From the NCBI GenBank assembly GCA_018812265.1, contig JAHJDG010000027.1:1-43231 (forward strand): a stretch of DNA of 43,231 nt, in the 5' to 3' direction. The DNA is from a bacterium (GTDB lineage: Bacteria > Electryoneota > RPQS01). Positions within the stretch are counted from its first letter, which is position 1, and each line of letters begins with the position of its first letter. Below the pieces are notes generated by a model. It saw nothing but the letters and a program-made list of their open reading frames with translations. It did no database searches and was not told the origin of the DNA. The translations under genes and the position numbers were made by a program. Of the stretch, positions 4,341 through 43,231 are shown piece by piece.

Positions 4341-7300
4341 CTACTTCATCAGCAGCATCTTGCGCAACAGTACCTTCTCATCGGTGTTCATGCGCAGGAT
4401 GTACATTCCGGTCGGGCAGGCCGAGCAGTCCCAAATTATCCGGTGCCAACCGGGCTGGAAGGTTTCATGAACCAGCGTGGTCACATGACGGCCCAGAACG
4501 TCGAAAATCTCGATGCGAACCTCCGCCACTCTCGGTACTCCGAATCGCACGGTCGTAGCCGGATTGAACGGATTCGGATAGTTCTGATCGAGCACGAAGT
4601 CCTTCGGCACGGACAGGACGTTCTCCATCACCACACCGTTGGAGATGAGCACGAAGAGTTCCGATTCTATCGAATCCGCGCGCTGACCACGATGCGTCGT
4701 GGCCAGGAACCGACAATTGGGGTGGGTTACGGAATCATGGGGCACGAACACCGAGTCACGCGGATGCGGCGTGATGGTGAGCAGGTGCGTATAGTTCTGC
4801 CCACCGTCCCAGGACATGAAGAGCCGCACGCTGTCAACATTCGGACAGAAAGACATGCTGTCAATCACGTACCACGTGTTATCCACGATGGTATCGGGTG
4901 GATCAATCGTGACTTGGAGCAAGGGCAACATGTTTCCCGAAACCGGCGTGGTGAAGGCAGTGGCGCCACAGTAGCGGTTGTAGGCGGCCACGGCGTAGGT
5001 GTGATTGCGTGGATCATCCACTTCCCGATCGGTATAGAGGAAACCCGTGGTCGAGTCAATGATCACACCGTCGCGACGGATATAGTACCCGTCCACCTCG
5101 CCGGTGGATATCATCCACGAAATCTGGATCGAGTCACACACGGCGGGAGTGACAAACGCCAGACCCGTGGGAACTGTGGGCAGCGAACGACCCCGACCAC
5201 TGTCGGGAATGCTGGGTGCGCTCTGACCACAACCCGTATTGTTGCTCTTGGCAATGACGCGGTACTCATAGGTTCCGGCAAACGTGTCCGCAAAGCTCAA
5301 GGTGGCGGCCGGAACCGCTGCCCGGCGAGCGCCATTGCGTTGAATGACGAACGAATCCACGACCCCGCCACCGCTCTGCCAGGTAACAATAACGCGGTTA
5401 CACAGCGTGTCGGTAGCGATGACGCTGGTGGGAGCGAGCGGAGCGACCAGTCGGGTTCCCGTCGCGGCAGTAGAAAGCGTGCCGTTGCCGCATGAGTTCT
5501 CGGCGCGGACTGTGTACTGGTAAGTGCCGGTGTCAGGTTGGTCGGCAAAGCGCGTGGCGTTGGCTGGACGGGTTCCCACTTCGACAGCGTCGCGGAAAAT
5601 CCGGTAGAGAGTTTCCGTCGCTACGTCCGTCCAGGTCACGATGACGCTGTCGCAACGGTTGATGGTCGCCTGTACGCCGGTGACCTGAACGGGCACAGTC
5701 GCCCGATAACCATTGTCCGCCGCGCTGACCGGGCCCGGCCCACAACGATTGTAGGCTGCCACGGTGTATGCATAGGTCGTACCTGCCACTGCGGTCGTAT
5801 CATTGAACGCGAGCGAGTCGGCCGGCCGGACTCCGATCCGGTTTCCGTCCCGCCGAATCTGGAAGCTGTCCTCATCGGCTACGTTGTTCCAGGTGATTCT
5901 CACAATGGCGCACATTGTATCCGATGCGACCACTCCGGGGACTTGCGCCGGAACATCCCAGCGCCGGCCCTGCACGGAATCGGAAGCCAGTCCCGATCCG
6001 CAGTCATTGAACGCCTGCACCTTATACCAATGGAAGCCGACAGCAGGATTGTCCACGTATTGTACGCTGTTCGCGGGTAGGGTTGCGATGGTTACGTTAG
6101 CCCGCTTCACATAGTAGCCCGATTCGTTCTGAACGTCGGTCCAGTCGAGCGTAACCGTGTTGCAGTTGTCGGTTGTCGCGGTTAATCCCGTCACCTGCCC
6201 CGGCGTTGGCACAAAATAAACGCTGTCCACGTTGGACATCGGGCCGAAGCCACACTCGTTATAGCCTTGCACAGAGTAGCCGACCACCGTGCCGCCCGGA
6301 CTGGTATTCCAGAAGCAAGTGAGTTCCGGTGAAACGTCACCGAAATGAACGCCGTTCCGATACAGGTAATAACGGGTAATGTCGTCCACCGCCGTCCAGC
6401 AGAAATACACGGTATCACAGGCGCTGTCCGGCACGGTAATGAACGGCGCTCCCGTCGGCACACCCTGCCGCTCGCCAACGACCACTCCCGACAGCTCGCC
6501 GATTCCGCAATTGTTGGAAACGCGGATCGTGTAATCGTGCGTGCCGACTTCGGGCGTATCCACGTAGCTGACGACGTTCTGTCCGAGAATCACCAGCGAA
6601 ATCGCATCCCGGAACAGCTCGTAATTCAATTCATCCGCCAGATCGTTCCACGTTACGGTCACAGTCGTACAGTGGTCCATCGTTGCGGCAAGATTCTGCA
6701 CCACGGCCGGCACGTCAGCCACATAGCCGTTAGCCACCGCCGACATCGGGGCATTGCCGCAATAATTCATCGCCTCCACCGTGTAGGTGTAGGGGCCGGG
6801 AGCGAGTGGTTCGTCGCGATAGATCAGAGTATTGGCGGCCAGAGTTGCGATCAGACTTCCTCCGCGATAGACACGGAAACTGTCCTCCGTAGCCACATCC
6901 GTCCAGGTAACCGTCACGCTCGTGCAACTGTCGGTGGTCGCCGCCACGTTCTGAACTTGAGCCGGCACCGCATACCGATGACCCTGAACGGAATCGGACA
7001 GCACCCCTTCGCCGCAGACGTTAAAAGCGGATACCCGGTAGTAATGCGTACTGCCCGGTTCAATGTCACTATCCGGATAGTGTTGTTCATCGGCCGAAAC
7101 TTCCGCGATGAATCCGCCGTCCCGATAGACGTAGTAGCCGCTCTCATTAGGCAGGTCCAACCATGTGACGGAAATTCCGCCGCAATAGTTCTGGGACGCC
7201 CAAACCTGCGTAACCTGCGCCACGCCCGGAATGCGATAGCCCTGCACCGGCGTCTGATCGGGACCGAGTCCGCAGTGATTCTTCCCACGCACGACATAGG

Positions 7301-10300
7301 CATGCGTGGTGAACTGGGCGGGGGCGAGGCTGTCTCGATATGTCGTTACCGCCGAGTTGACGCTGTCAATCGGGGAACCGTTGCGATAGATGACGTATTG
7401 CGCAGCCCGCGCCACGGCGGTCCAGGTCAGATACACGGCCGCGCAACTCGTGTCGGACGCCTGCAGAGTCATGACTCCCGCCGGAACCGCATAACGTGAG
7501 CCGGTTGCCGGAGGATCGGAAAGTTCGCCTACTCCACAGATGTTGCGGGCGGCGATTGTGTAGAAATAGTCCGTGAGGACTGCGACTGTCGTGTCATAGT
7601 ACGACGGATTGGGATCGCCCGCCGCAATTGAATCGTGGAATACATCATTCCGATACACACGATAGCGGTCGGCTCCCGGCAGAGCGGTCCAGGTGATGCG
7701 GATTCCGCTGCAACTGTCGGTGGAGGCGGCCACGCCCGTCACCGCCACCAGCAGCGGCAAGCGCATGGCGGTTTGTTGATTGGATTTCCCCGTCTCGCCG
7801 CAGCCCGACGTGTACGCGGAGACCGCATACACGTAGTTCACACCGCGCTCTCCGGTGGTATCCTGATACATGGTATCGGGATCAATCACGGTGGCAATCA
7901 GGATGAAGTTCTGGGCATTCGGACCACGGTAGACGTAGTAGCCCTCGGGAATTCCGGTGGAGGTGCGCCAGACGAGGTTCACGCCTTCGCAGGTATTCGT
8001 CGCCGTCAGATTGGTCGGGATTCCCGCGTCCGCCTGACGAAGTCCGGGAGCTCCGGCCGTGGAATCCGTTTCGCCGCACACCGTATCCACGGCGGTCACC
8101 GTGTAGCGGATCGTGTCGCCGGGATCGGGAGCTTCGGCATAGCGCGTTAGCGGTGCCATCACCGTCACGGGCAATGTGCCGTCGCGGTACACCTTGTAGT
8201 AGTCGAAGGTTCCGGTGGAAGCCGTCCACGTCACCACCACGCTGTCGCAGCGGTTATCGGTCGCCGCCACGTCGGTCGGAGGAGTGGCATCGGGCAGAAC
8301 CGTTCCGGTGACCGCATTCGAGGGCGCTGCGTCGGTGCAGTTTTCCGAATAGGCAATCACGTCGTATTGGGAGTTACCGTCAGGAGCCGTCGAATCGAAG
8401 TAGGATACCGTGAGCAGCAGCGTCGTTTCCACCGTGTCCAGATTCGCGGCATCGCGGCGGACGATGTAGCCGTGCACCGAGCCGGTGGATTCCTGCCACT
8501 GCAGCATCACGCCGTCGCAGCGGTTGACGGTGGTGGTGAGGCCCGTCACCTGGCTCGGATAGGCCAGCAGATTGCCGTAGTAGGGGGGATCGGACAGTGC
8601 GCCGTTGCCGCATTGCTCGGAGTATGCGCGCACGGTATAGGCATAAGCGCCGGCCGTGTCCGGGACATGACCATATGTCGTCGTCAGCGCGCCCATTGAA
8701 TCGAGGAACGCGCCGCCGACGTAGATGAGGTATCCATCCACGTCGCCGGTGGCCGCATTCCACGTCACCAGAATGCTGTCGCAGCGCGTGCGGGTGGCCT
8801 GTACGTTCGTTACTTGTCCGGCTTCCTCGAGCCGTTCGCCCGTGGCAATCGCGCTCTGGGCCGTCACTCCGCACTGCTCACTGAATGCCGCAACCCGGTA
8901 ATTGAACACGCCGGAAGCCGTGGTGTTGTCCGTATAGGTTGTCAGGGTACCGAGGATCGTGTCAATTGCGGTTCCCTCGCGATAGATCACATAGCGATCT
9001 ACGTCCCCCGTCGAAGCCGTCCAACCGAGTTCGATCCGGTCGCAAAGGTTGGTCGTTGCCGTCAGGTTCTGCGGAACCGACGGGAAAATCAGACTTCCTC
9101 CCGAATCCGCGGGAGCGGCACCGCTTTCACCGCAATGATTCCACGACGTGACCGTGTACTGATAGCGCTGGCCGGGCGTGGCACTGAAGTCACTGTAGAA
9201 CTGCCACACGTAGGGGACGGTGCCGATATGTGTGCCGTTGCGATAGACCCAGAACGAGTCCGCCTGAGGAATGGACGTCCAGGTGATGTATACGCTGTCG
9301 CAGGCATTATCGGAAGCCCAAACGGGTACGGTCATCTGGGCGGGAATCGCCGCCGCATAGCCCGAATCCACTGCGCTGGCCGCGCCCGCTCCGCATTGAT
9401 TGTAGCCTACCACGGTGTAGCCGTAGGTCGTCCACGGCGTAGCGGTGTTGTCGGTGAAGGTAATCACATCCGCCGCGACGCCTCCGATCCGGGTGCCGTC
9501 CCGCAGAATCTGGAAGCTGTCCTCTTCGGCAATGTTGTTCCAGGTAATCCGCACAAAGCCGCAGCTATCGTCAGTAGCCACGACGCCCGTCACCGCGGCC
9601 AGCGAAGGAATCCGCTCGCCGATCACCGCCGAGGAGGTATCTCCCGAACCGCAAGTATTGGCGGCCACCACCCGATAGGTGTGAGTGCCGGGAGTAGCGG
9701 TCGTATCGCGATAGGTCAGGCTGTCGCGCGGTCGCGTCGCCAGAAATGTGCCGTTTCGCAGAACCCGGAAGCTGTCTTCAAGAGCCACGTTGTTCCAGAC
9801 GAGGTGAATGGCCCGGCAGCTCGTGTCGCTGGCGGCCAGACCCGTCACTTGCGGCGGACGCGGTTTGGTCGAACCGCTATTCGATGCCGACTCGGTGCCC
9901 GAGCCGCAGTTGTTGTAGGCGGTCACCGAGTAGTTATACAGAAGCCCCGCGATCGCCGTGGAGTCGTTGTAGGAAGTTGCGCCCGTCAACGCCACGCCGA
10001 TCCGGCTGCCGTTCCGCTTGATCTGGAAGCTGTCCACGCCCGTCATGGAAGCCCACGTGACGCGCACCCCCCAGCAGTAGATGCTGTCCGAGGCCGCCAC
10101 GGTCAGAACTTGCCCCGGTGCGGCCTTGCGGCGACCGGTCACCGACGAGCTGGCAGTACCATAGCCACAGTTATTCTTAGCCTGCACTTGGTAGCTGTAA
10201 CCGGTTCCCGGAGTGCCCGTCACGTCGTTGTAGGTGACGACATTCGCTGCAACTGAGTCAATGGCCACCGAGCTGCGAAGAATCCGGTAGCCGGTCTCAT

Positions 10301-11738
10301 TGGCAACATCCGTCCATGAAAGCGCTACATGTGTACAATATGTATCATATGAGGCGGTCGGAGTCACAACTTGTCCCGGTACTGTGTATGCGATGCCAAG
10401 ATCATACAAAGCCTCAGGACCCGTGCTGCAGGAATTCCAGCCCTGCACAGTGAAACGATAATTCGTGCTATAGGTGGGGGGGTTTGTTCGATAGCGCTGC
10501 ACACCGGGCGCAATAGGCGTCGTATTGAGAACGGTTCGGGTTCCCCCCGTATCGGTGTAGCGAATCACATAATAACCCGTGGCCAGTGCCGTGTCCGCCC
10601 ACGTGACAACAATGGAATCGCAATAGGTATCCGACGCCTGGACATTTCCCGGCCTTCCCGTTGGACCCTGCCGCGCGGTTCCCGAATCACAGGCCGCGAT
10701 TCCTTCACCGCACAGCCGATTCCAACCGACCACGCAATACCGCGCCGGCGCCGGGTTGGTGGTGAAGTGGTCCATCTGCCGTGGTCCGGCAGGGACCGTA
10801 TTATCCATCCAGCCAACGGTGGTGTCGTTGCGGGTGACGCGGAACGAATCCATGCCGGCATTGCTCGTGTAGGTCCACGATATCCTCACATAACCGCAGT
10901 TGGCATCAGTGGCCACTACACTCTGCGGAGTTTGAGGGATGGCGCGCGGCGTCCCCTGATCCTCCACCAGCGGAGAGAAGGAAGTATCGGTGGGACAGTC
11001 CCGCCGCGCCTTGATCCCGTACCAGTAGGTGGTATTGACAACTCCCGTGCTGTCAACATAGGACGTGGCCGTGTAGCGAACCCGTTTGATTTCGACCCCA
11101 GCCCGGTAGATGACCAGCGTGTCCACCGGACCGCCGGTGGTGTCCCGCGGGTAGGCATTCCACGTCATCAACACCCGGCCGCACTCATTTTCCGAAGCCT
11201 GAAAGCCCTGCACGGGCGATGGCGTCGGACAAGCCTCCTGACACGGCTCGGTGTTGCACGTCCAATCGTCAAGGTAGACAGTTTGCGGGCCGGTGGAGAC
11301 GGTGAACACCTCGGACACCCAGTGAAGCGTGGGCAAACAAATCCGGCAATAATACCTCGCCGGAGTCGGCATGCCGTAGGCGGATTGAAAGGCGGTTTCA
11401 GTATAGAAGGTGCCGTGCCCGATGCCGAGGGAGAATCCGTTCATGGCAAACTGGTTGTAGTTGTGTGTGCCGGCCGGGCCGGTGGGACAATCGGGTGGTA
11501 ATTCACACGGCTCCGCCAGCGGGTCGTCCCAGTCCGGACCATCCGAATCCACGTCCCGATAGATTTTCACGACCGTGCCATCCTGCAGTGGATTGCCACC
11601 CGTGCAGGTGTCATTGAGATACACGAAATTGTCGGATGGATCGGAGCACTGTAAGGTGGCCGTAAACCCCTGCGCGTGAGCGGTGGCAGTGATTGCAGCC
11701 AGACTGAGCACGATAAGAACAATTCGCAAGAACTTCAT
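4341..11738 (-). CDS. Giant secreted protein, 24 disulfide-type Fn3-like repeats, T9SS sorting tail
   Basis: This 2465-residue exported protein starts at the ATG at 11736-11738, with AGGAG seven bases upstream; MKFLRIVLIVLSLAAITATA-HAQ is a signal peptide. Residues 24-170 are a cysteine-rich N-terminal domain. About 175-2266 hold 24 repeats of roughly 87 residues. Each begins with a pattern like C..V.[VI].W, has [YF].[VI].R.G in the middle and ends F.N.CG.G..S, as in fibronectin-III sandwiches. Both cysteines are present in all 24 repeats. Repeats 9-13 and 24 form a subfamily with STG.V in place of the usual loop. The last about 80 residues (QNYPNPFNP, IFDVLGRHV, MYILRM, ending MLLMK) are a Por/type IX sorting domain. 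A role as a long surface fibre or adhesin is inferred; no catalytic motif is visible. Confidence 0.95.
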   Translation of the reverse strand: MKFLRIVLIVLSLAAITATAHAQGFTATLQCSDPSDNFVYLNDTCTGGNPLQDGTVVKIYRDVDSDGPDWDDPLAEPCELPPDCPTGPAGTHNYNQFAMNGFSLGIGHGTFYTETAFQSAYGMPTPARYYCRICLPTLHWVSEVFTVSTGPQTVYLDDWTCNTEPCQEACPTPSPVQGFQASENECGRVLMTWNAYPRDTTGGPVDTLVIYRAGVEIKRVRYTATSYVDSTGVVNTTYWYGIKARRDCPTDTSFSPLVEDQGTPRAIPQTPQSVVATDANCGYVRISWTYTSNAGMDSFRVTRNDTTVGWMDNTVPAGPRQMDHFTTNPAPARYCVVGWNRLCGEGIAACDSGTARQGPTGRPGNVQASDTYCDSIVVTWADTALATGYYVIRYTDTGGTRTVLNTTPIAPGVQRYRTNPPTYSTNYRFTVQGWNSCSTGPEALYDLGIAYTVPGQVVTPTASYDTYCTHVALSWTDVANETGYRILRSSVAIDSVAANVVTYNDVTGTPGTGYSYQVQAKNNCGYGTASSSVTGRRKAAPGQVLTVAASDSIYCWGVRVTWASMTGVDSFQIKRNGSRIGVALTGATSYNDSTAIAGLLYNYSVTAYNNCGSGTESASNSGSTKPRPPQVTGLAASDTSCRAIHLVWNNVALEDSFRVLRNGTFLATRPRDSLTYRDTTATPGTHTYRVVAANTCGSGDTSSAVIGERIPSLAAVTGVVATDDSCGFVRITWNNIAEEDSFQILRDGTRIGGVAADVITFTDNTATPWTTYGYTVVGYNQCGAGAASAVDSGYAAAIPAQMTVPVWASDNACDSVYITWTSIPQADSFWVYRNGTHIGTVPYVWQFYSDFSATPGQRYQYTVTSWNHCGESGAAPADSGGSLIFPSVPQNLTATTNLCDRIELGWTASTGDVDRYVIYREGTAIDTILGTLTTYTDNTTASGVFNYRVAAFSEQCGVTAQSAIATGERLEEAGQVTNVQATRTRCDSILVTWNAATGDVDGYLIYVGGAFLDSMGALTTTYGHVPDTAGAYAYTVRAYSEQCGNGALSDPPYYGNLLAYPSQVTGLTTTVNRCDGVMLQWQESTGSVHGYIVRRDAANLDTVETTLLLTVSYFDSTAPDGNSQYDVIAYSENCTDAAPSNAVTGTVLPDATPPTDVAATDNRCDSVVVTWTASTGTFDYYKVYRDGTLPVTVMAPLTRYAEAPDPGDTIRYTVTAVDTVCGETDSTAGAPGLRQADAGIPTNLTATNTCEGVNLVWRTSTGIPEGYYVYRGPNAQNFILIATVIDPDTMYQDTTGERGVNYVYAVSAYTSGCGETGKSNQQTAMRLPLLVAVTGVAASTDSCSGIRITWTALPGADRYRVYRNDVFHDSIAAGDPNPSYYDTTVAVLTDYFYTIAARNICGVGELSDPPATGSRYAVPAGVMTLQASDTSCAAVYLTWTAVARAAQYVIYRNGSPIDSVNSAVTTYRDSLAPAQFTTHAYVVRGKNHCGLGPDQTPVQGYRIPGVAQVTQVWASQNYCGGISVTWLDLPNESGYYVYRDGGFIAEVSADEQHYPDSDIEPGSTHYYRVSAFNVCGEGVLSDSVQGHRYAVPAQVQNVAATTDSCTSVTVTWTDVATEDSFRVYRGGSLIATLAANTLIYRDEPLAPGPYTYTVEAMNYCGNAPMSAVANGYVADVPAVVQNLAATMDHCTTVTVTWNDLADELNYELFRDAISLVILGQNVVSYVDTPEVGTHDYTIRVSNNCGIGELSGVVVGERQGVPTGAPFITVPDSACDTVYFCWTAVDDITRYYLYRNGVHFGDVSPELTCFWNTSPGGTVVGYSVQGYNECGFGPMSNVDSVYFVPTPGQVTGLTATTDNCNTVTLDWTDVQNESGYYVKRANVTIATLPANSVQYVDNPAVGFHWYKVQAFNDCGSGLASDSVQGRRWDVPAQVPGVVASDTMCAIVRITWNNVADEDSFQIRRDGNRIGVRPADSLAFNDTTAVAGTTYAYTVAAYNRCGPGPVSAADNGYRATVPVQVTGVQATINRCDSVIVTWTDVATETLYRIFRDAVEVGTRPANATRFADQPDTGTYQYTVRAENSCGNGTLSTAATGTRLVAPLAPTSVIATDTLCNRVIVTWQSGGGVVDSFVIQRNGARRAAVPAATLSFADTFAGTYEYRVIAKSNNTGCGQSAPSIPDSGRGRSLPTVPTGLAFVTPAVCDSIQISWMISTGEVDGYYIRRDGVIIDSTTGFLYTDREVDDPRNHTYAVAAYNRYCGATAFTTPVSGNMLPLLQVTIDPPDTIVDNTWYVIDSMSFCPNVDSVRLFMSWDGGQNYTHLLTITPHPRDSVFVPHDSVTHPNCRFLATTHRGQRADSIESELFVLISNGVVMENVLSVPKDFVLDQNYPNPFNPATTVRFGVPRVAEVRIEIFDVLGRHVTTLVHETFQPGWHRIIWDCSACPTGMYILRMNTDEKVLLRKMLLMK
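4941..11216 (-). repeat. Protein-coding tandem array of 24 Fn3-like units
   Basis: Twenty-four in-frame units of about 260 bases encode the repeats of the giant protein. Units are diverged at the DNA level and are recognisable mainly from the protein pattern, so this is an old array rather than a recent expansion. Boundaries are approximate to within about ten codons. Confidence 0.85.
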
Positions 11739-11826
11739 GGCAGGACTCCTCACATCAACGGTCGGAAAAGATGGAGCGATAATTTTCGAGGGATGGAAGC
11801 CGGCGAGCACGGAACTCAGACCCGCC

Positions 11827-13086: not shown

Positions 13087-13160
13087 TCGCCGAGCCGGGT
13101 TAAGTGCTCGTTATTCCGACATTCACCATACCTCAAGCCGCGCGCAACCCGGCCGGAATC
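13087..13160 (+). repeat. Dispersed 74-bp intergenic repeat, copy A
   Basis: The left flank TCGCCGAGCCGGGTTAAG and the 24-base right flank (13137-13160, containing GCGCGCAACCCGGCCGG) are identical to those of the copy at 34764-34837. The 32-base spacer is equal in length but diverged. The flanks pair through GCCGGGTT and AACCCGGC. It lies between the terminator and the hisC stop. Confidence 0.85.
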
Positions 13161-21476: not shown

Positions 21477-21526
21477 GTGCTTCCTTTGAATCGGTTTATT
21501 TGAAGGATGGTAACGTGAATCGCGGC

Positions 21527-21546
21527 GGCGAATCTCCAGATTCGCC
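21527..21546. repeat. Palindromic intergenic repeat (module 3), copy in the marR-receptor gap
   Basis: GGCGAATCT and AGATTCGCC form a nine-bp stem around CC, immediately beyond the marR stop. The palindrome at 43194-43213 has the same layout and differs at two base pairs, each changed on both sides, so pairing is kept. Being inside an operon, it could set relative expression of marR and the receptor. Confidence 0.75.
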
Positions 21547-22062
21547 CTACATCTTCTCCGACGGCGGCAAGTGCGGTTCGCTGATTCCTAAAACTCCGGC
21601 GCTCTTCTCGATGAATCCTTTCAGCGAGGCGATGACCACGCGGAGATCGGCGGTGTCGTAGTCCTGCAGATAATCCGACATCACCTGAGTGTAGCGTTCC
21701 ATGACTTGATCGAGCAGCCGACGGCCTTCATCCGTAATCTCGATCAGGGACACGCGGCGGTCCGAGGGAGATGGAATTCGGCGGAGCAGACCGCGGGCTT
21801 CGAGGTCATCCACCAGCGAAGTGATGCTCGACGGACTGACCATGATGAAATTGGCCTCGCGCAGCTCGGTCATCGAGGGCGTTCCCCCATAGATCAGAAG
21901 CGTGGCCAGGATGCTGAACTTGGGAACGTTCAGACCGAACGGACCGAACACGAGCTGATCGCCGGCCCGCACGGTCAGCTCCCCCGCCAGAATGAGAAGT
22001 CGCGGCAGAGCGATTTCCATATCCTCGCGGCTGTCCAAATCAATATCTAAAAGTCTCTTCAA
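21547..22062 (-). CDS. MarR-family transcriptional regulator
   Basis: A 171-residue winged helix-turn-helix regulator. The DNA-binding core is visible as PKFSILATLLIYGG, MTELREANFIMVSPSSITSLVDDLE, and the wing ARGLLRRIPSPSDRRVSLIEITDEGRR (split across residues about 85-115); flanking helices would dimerise. The probable start is the TTG at 22060-22062, with GGAGG nine bases upstream; an ATG at 22020 is the alternative and would lose 14 residues ahead of the first helix. It heads the operon containing the TonB receptor, lipoprotein and HD protein. A perfect 8-bp inverted repeat overlaps the -35 box of its own promoter, so autorepression is the simple model. The effector is unknown. Confidence 0.93.
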   Translation of the reverse strand: MKRLLDIDLDSREDMEIALPRLLILAGELTVRAGDQLVFGPFGLNVPKFSILATLLIYGGTPSMTELREANFIMVSPSSITSLVDDLEARGLLRRIPSPSDRRVSLIEITDEGRRLLDQVMERYTQVMSDYLQDYDTADLRVVIASLKGFIEKSAGVLGISEPHLPPSEKM

Positions 22063-34718: not shown

Positions 34719-34750
34719 TTAGAGCGTATCCCAAGAATATCCGAGGGGAA
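34719..34750 (+). repeat. Dispersed repeat module 1, first copy
   Basis: The 32 bases beginning TTAGAGCGTATCCCAA match 43144-43175 with three differences. They are followed here, after a short gap, by the 74-bp module 2 rather than the palindrome seen at the other copy. Confidence 0.8.
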
Positions 34751-34763
34751 AGAAAGCGAAGGC

Positions 34764-34837
34764 TCGCCGAGCCGGGTTAAGCGCTCACGGTCTTCTCCAG
34801 TGGTAAGCCACCGGCCGCGCGCAACCCGGCCGGAATC
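34764..34837 (+). repeat. Dispersed 74-bp intergenic repeat, copy B
   Basis: It shares the 18-base left flank and 24-base right flank exactly with copy A at 13087-13160, in the same orientation and with the same 32-base spacing. Here it is joined to module 1. Confidence 0.85.
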
Positions 34838-35101
34838 TTCTCACCTCTGTCTCATGCTCACCTTGATCGTGAACCGAGCCCGTTCAACGGCCTGGACTCG
34901 CATACTATTTTTGAGATAAGTTCCAGCACCTTTCCGGAAGCTCCGCAATCCCAAAACGGGTCACTTATCCCAAGTGTTGCCGGGCCGCCCGACATCACGT
35001 ACATCACCCAATCACACCTTCACACTACTGAGCCACTTGTGCCAAATATGCTGACGGGAAACAGACCGTGTCCAGCCCTCGGGGTGCAGTTCAGATACCA
35101 A
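34838..35101. other. Gene-poor stretch downstream of repeat B
   Basis: Apart from the tail of the truncated frame, no coding or structural signal was recognised between the repeat and the terminator of the next minus-strand gene. Confidence 0.4.
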
Positions 35102-43143: not shown

Positions 43144-43175
43144 TTAGAGCGTATCCCAAAAACATCAGAGGGGAA
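43144..43175 (+). repeat. Dispersed repeat module 1, second copy
   Basis: TTAGAGCGTATCCCAA and the following 16 bases match 34719-34750 with three differences. Here the module is followed by the palindromic module 3 rather than the 74-bp module. Confidence 0.8.
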
Positions 43176-43193
43176 TGCGTGATTTCTCCCGGT

Positions 43194-43213
43194 GGTGACT
43201 CTCCAGAGTCACC
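43194..43213. repeat. Palindromic intergenic repeat (module 3), second copy
   Basis: GGTGACTCT and AGAGTCACC form a nine-bp stem around CC. Compared with 21527-21546 two base pairs are exchanged with pairing preserved. The surrounding GGTGG and CCACC may extend the pairing. Confidence 0.75.
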
Positions 43214-43231
43214 CCTCCACCACCTTGCTGA

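Follow-up and report, generated by a model that had tools for sequence, protein, structure and literature searches.

The elements described here belong to two kinds that are each already known: IS5-family MITEs and REP or REPIN hairpins. IS5-family MITEs are short and lack open reading frames; their imperfect inverted ends match an IS5-family element, TA lies at their junctions and their copies are near-identical. By the published definition (PMC6006769), a REP hairpin has a GT[AG]G guide at its foot, and REPs are associated with genes for RAYTs, the REP-associated tyrosine transposases or TnpA-REP (PMC2817692, PMC6006769). In REPINs (PMC3116915), near-invariant inverted arms enclose a variable spacer; the units form hairpins, lie scattered through the genome and are found near RAYTs. 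IS elements and REPs have been linked before, in that several IS families, IS5 among them, are known to target REPs (PMC1525189). TIMEs, miniature elements derived from Tn3, are likewise non-autonomous and produce mosaic structures; they are described as having Tn3-family ends (PMC4133298), unlike the IS5 ends found here.

Here we report a case in which two unrelated transposition systems meet in elements of about 200 bp. It differs from IS5-family MITEs in two respects: the interior is a REP or REPIN hairpin rather than a deleted transposase gene, and several alternative interiors occur within one end pair. A search of open-licence papers found no MITE shell with alternative REP cargoes and no earlier account of either system in this uncultured order.

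The window, the whole stretch of 43,231 nucleotides that was analysed, is the entire contig 27 of a draft genome of 3.5 Mb (235 contigs, 97.5% complete). A first-pass annotation had described a family of intergenic repeats in it, built from three modules that occur as 2 alone, 3 alone, 1+2 and 1+3. All four places carry the modules named, and differing combinations recur genome-wide. The two module-1 copies (34719-34750 and 43144-43175) are 91% identical. Nor are the copies few: searching for each module separately, as the annotation had proposed, gave 11, 36 and 82 genome-wide matches, and our copy counts are taken from these searches. The 11 are matches to a module-1 pattern, against 0 with the reversed control pattern; the 36 and 82 come from covariance models built here for whole module 2 (R1) and module 3 (R2). 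The module-2 left arm alone gave 33 genome-wide matches against 11 with a control pattern. The modules occur well beyond the level of chance. What had been taken for three equal modules are in fact parts of two mechanistically unrelated element kinds, and the family is a mosaic of IS5 MITE ends and RAYT-associated REP/REPIN hairpins.

What, then, is module 1? Rather than a free module, it is the end of a MITE that has terminal repeats and belongs to the IS5 family. The 1+2 copy is a full-length MITE of 206 bp (34720..34925, plus strand; class B), bounded by the inverted terminal repeats TAGAGCGTATCCCAAGAAT and TGGAACTTATCTCAAAAAT and holding one module-2 REPIN-like unit (34765..34835, plus strand; R1, 82.2 bits). 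Homologues of 205-213 bp occur in the related genomes G011, G012 and G004. Its left terminal repeat (34720..34738, plus strand) is the core of module 1, which aligns over about 32 bp with the 3' end of autonomous IS5 elements. The annotation saw no obvious terminal repeat and ended the copy 88 bp short; a search for paired ends located the right repeat at 34907..34925 (minus strand), so that imperfect 19-bp repeats close the element on both sides. A full copy on contig 213, 158 bp in total, starts with TAGAGCGCATCCCAAAAAC and closes with its imperfect inverse. Paired inverted 19-bp ends lying about 156-210 bp apart, with no transposase ORF between them, were found in this genome (G000), its sister G001, G004, G011 and G012.

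Ends of the identical type also bound elements of 871-874 bp in G002, G004 and G011, and two of these genomes, G004 and G011, each hold both the MITE and the autonomous element. The 874-bp element of G011 has two overlapping ORFs matching DUF4096, DDE_Tnp_1 and the NCBIfam IS5 model; the ORFs of locus L183 match Pfam DUF4096 and DDE_Tnp_1 and NCBIfam transpos_IS5_3 (NF033580). TA is present at both junctions of the copies on contigs 213, 206 and 48 and of most copies in relatives, with the consensus YTAR. The right border of the window MITE is CA instead, a decayed TA duplication. We dropped IS630/Tc1-mariner as the source of the TA duplications once an IS5 transposase with matching ends had appeared. 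At E <= 1e-20, neither this genome nor G001 yielded a match to an IS5 transposase of this type; for this genome, an assembly gap is a possible reason. In G004 (L184, contig 297, 162-1580), a 1,419-bp stretch between IS5-type ends holds an ORF of 330 aa for an IS110-like transposase; it adjoins an 874-bp IS5 copy and is possibly an IS within an IS.

The 1+3 copy is the left half of a class A MITE (43145..43231, plus strand), incomplete only because it runs past the end of the contig. It contains a module-3 hairpin with the head GTGG (43190..43217, plus strand; R2, 43.3 bits) and, over 81-86 bp, shares 97.5-98.8% identity with six further class A copies, five of which likewise stop at contig ends. 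With the diverged contig 48 copy set aside, identity among the seven class A left ends (81-86 bp) is 97.5-100%; among the right ends it is 98-100%, or 95-96% for the contig 48 copy. Six of the left and five of the right ends are no more than about 150 bp away from a contig end, which is most simply explained if these near-identical copies broke the assembly, the window end at 43231 included.

Module 2 (70 bp) is REPIN-like by anatomy. In an alignment of 21 copies (A2), the arms CGCCGAGCCGGGTTAAGCGCTC and CCGCGCGCAACCCGGCCGGAA (22 and 21 bp) are conserved around a spacer of about 28 bp; they pair in 97% of cells, which reflects sequence conservation and not covariation. Two conserved inverted arms, a variable spacer and dispersal through the genome are what a REPIN calls for. 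Module 2 fails the canonical head test, its head slot being GAGC and not GTAG or GTGG; it also differs from described REPINs in that its arms form no clear individual hairpins and its loop sometimes houses another REP. An attC-like identity was rejected because the arms carry the wrong core motifs, the 5' arm having GTT and the 3' arm AAC. The solitary copy in the window (13088..13158, plus strand; R1, 75.3 bits) lies between the 3' ends of a convergent TolB-like gene and hisC. On contig 111 (L028), a short tandem array of TTTTCCCGGTGGTGACTCTCCCGCAACACCCTCCGA directly follows module 2 and ends in a module-3 hairpin. Among 41 genomes searched, 14 have module 2, with a maximum of 107 copies; G007 yielded neither module 2 nor a Y1 transposase match. 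A search of the GTDB collection for the exact 20-mer of the left arm, from which records of this genome itself were possibly left out, matched just five metagenome-assembled 'bacterium' genomes.

Module 3 fits the published REP definition (PMC6006769) because it has GTGG at the foot of its hairpin. Across the 39 copies examined in this genome, an 8-bp stem carries a 4-nt loop that is mostly TCCA, and the foot reads GTGG in 36 and GCGG in 3. Its covariation is strong, but the alignment rows were picked for perfect stems, and it is not independent evidence. The solitary copy in the window (21523..21550, plus strand; R2, 41.6 bits) has the GCGG variant as its head and directly adjoins a MarR-like gene at the stop codon. 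At 21547, the CTAC next to the hairpin holds the other-strand TAG stop of that gene.

Both hairpins are tied to RAYTs in relatives, which bears out the annotation's suggestion that a TnpA-REP enzyme be sought. In G008 (L144), a RAYT lies between inverted module-2 copies, two on one side and three on the other; in G009 (L150), one inverted module-2 copy flanks a RAYT on each side; and in the sister species G001 (L137), a RAYT is bracketed by inverted module 3, with module 2 farther out. The 5, 2 and 7 copies observed compare with Poisson expectations of 0.01, 0.02 and 0.11, figures that serve as guides only, since copies are not independent and 25 RAYT loci were examined. The five RAYTs from loci bearing module 2 or 3 all match REP_Tyr_transpos (NF047646), four of them above the cut-off and that of L144 at 79.9 against 80 bits. 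Most RAYTs that carry HFVTTVT or HFITTVT close to their start have hairpins of their own, with CGCCGAG and CCGGAA flanks or variants of these; hairpins beside related RAYTs have GAGC, GAGG or GCGG as head. As to whether the RAYTs flanked by module 2 are one clade, the tree is poorly resolved. At L127 (G006) and L129 (G009), Y1_Tnp lies in open frames of 660 and 782 aa, far beyond the normal RAYT length.

Described REP systems differ from this one in that the host genome here, from an uncultured order, has no detected matching RAYT; inverted pairs flanking a RAYT are found in relatives and not in this genome. Its single RAYT (L050, 1390-1878) is set among a different hairpin (CTAGCCGACACGCTCC...), and we rejected it as the mover of modules 2 and 3 since its flanks bear another REP. 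That REP family (the CTAG-GCAACACGCTCCCGCGTGTTGC type) also adjoins module-2 copies in L014 and L036. With no IS5 transposase detected and the RAYT among other REPs, both families here may be relics, or their enzymes may lie in assembly gaps.

How do the two kinds of element come together? Similar IS5 ends enclose at least four interiors. Class A, in this genome, has two opposed module-3 hairpins; class B, found in four genera, has module 2 in constant orientation and nearly constant position; class C (G001) has another inverted repeat; and class D has a REP doublet whose hairpin also occurs alone elsewhere in G001. A REP or REPIN lies between the two terminal repeats in classes A, B and D, and this genome has two of the three or more alternative REP/REPIN cargoes that the shells carry. 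The loci examined contained no class C cargo outside MITEs, and the searches yielded no MITE whose cargo site was empty. The shared flanks of the class B composite suggest one inherited or transferred element. Nesting also runs the other way: module-2 loops hold module 3 (L014, L017, L022) or other hairpins, a MITE half follows the module-2 left arm at L196 and L201, and all three modules occur together at L021. Two copies in G004 consist of a module-2 left arm, then a MITE left half, then a complete module 2; here a MITE probably inserted into the loop, after which the inner and outer right arms would have recombined and so removed the remainder.

We establish anatomy, family assignments, copy numbers and orthologous presence or absence, and infer mobilisation by the two enzymes and the swapping of cargo. 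We consider it highly probable (roughly 0.85) that the family consists of nested IS5 MITEs and RAYT-driven REPs and REPINs, reshuffled by insertion and by recombination at shared arms. The shell would be a MITE of 156-210 bp derived from both ends of an IS5-family insertion sequence, and a DDE transposase acting in trans would move it into YTAR targets, leaving TA at each junction. RAYT HUH enzymes would move the hairpins, modules 2 and 3, as single strands. Hairpins that lodge in a MITE shell could then multiply with it, and recombination at scattered shared arms could delete or swap halves to give 2, 3, 1+2, 1+3, 2+3 and 1+2+3. The annotation's view of the pieces as non-autonomous mobile elements holds for IS5 MITEs and REP/REPIN hairpins alike. 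Its proposal that they are assembled or exchanged as units keeps the mosaic, which is real, and is better replaced by the nesting of REPs and REPINs in MITEs together with presumed recombination at shared arms.

Could the shells and the REPs instead be unrelated, joined only because IS5 elements prefer REP targets? The published target preference and the two MITE left halves within module-2 loops in G004 would fit such an account. We nevertheless think it improbable, because three classes carry their REP or REPIN between the terminal repeats, and target choice does not explain the orientation and near-constant position of module 2 in class B across four genera.

A somewhat smaller chance still goes to the idea that modules 2 and 3 are selected RNA or terminator hairpins at transcript ends and do not move. 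They frequently lie right after stop codons or between convergent genes, and module 3 and one module-2 copy fold better as single strands than their shuffles do. Copy number, however, ranges from 0 to 107 among relatives within one family, both orientations occur, the modules lie beside RAYTs and within MITEs, the module-2 arms are conserved by sequence without covariation, and an Rfam scan of the window matched no family. The hairpins are also missing at orthologous sites. The module-2 site beside hisC has no repeat in G002, a different hairpin in G009 and module 2 in G004; the module-3 site at 21523 has a hairpin in G001 and none in G002 and G009; and the MITE is missing downstream of the orthologous Rrf2-type gene in G001 and G009, the far neighbour differing in G001. 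The annotation had called for empty sites, and these data answer in part, as presence or absence between genera and not as base-exact empty sites. Filled and unfilled sites suggest movement of the repeats.

Least probable by our estimate is the alternative that the annotation itself had named, one ancestral all-module repeat truncated at random and decayed to partial copies: single MITE halves or shortened MITEs do occur (L021, L198, L267), but modules 2 and 3 are sharply and repeatedly bounded and separately distributed, they occur alone far more often than the MITE (36 and 82 copies, compared with about 11 left ends), they flank RAYT genes as the MITE does not, the same pair of ends encloses unrelated interiors in different MITE classes, and G006 holds modules 2 and 3 with no MITE ends detected.

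The presence of class B in four genera, together with filled and empty orthologous sites, makes REPIN insertions datable. Class B also permits asking whether REPINs gain copies via MITEs, which bears on the persistence of REP populations. Beyond the nesting of IS5 MITEs and RAYT-driven hairpins, we offer tentatively, and as rather unlikely, a hybrid element class: a conserved IS5 end pair might act as a cassette shell that takes up and exchanges REPIN cargoes again and again, so that the same DNA could spread through both double-strand DDE transposition of the shell and single-strand HUH transposition of the cargo, and further hairpins may land in extruded REPIN loops.

Elsewhere in the window, the minus strand at 4341-11810 holds a 2,489-aa ORF with many FnIII-like repeats. 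It ends in a C-terminal NPFNP sorting-type motif shared with other ORFs of the window.
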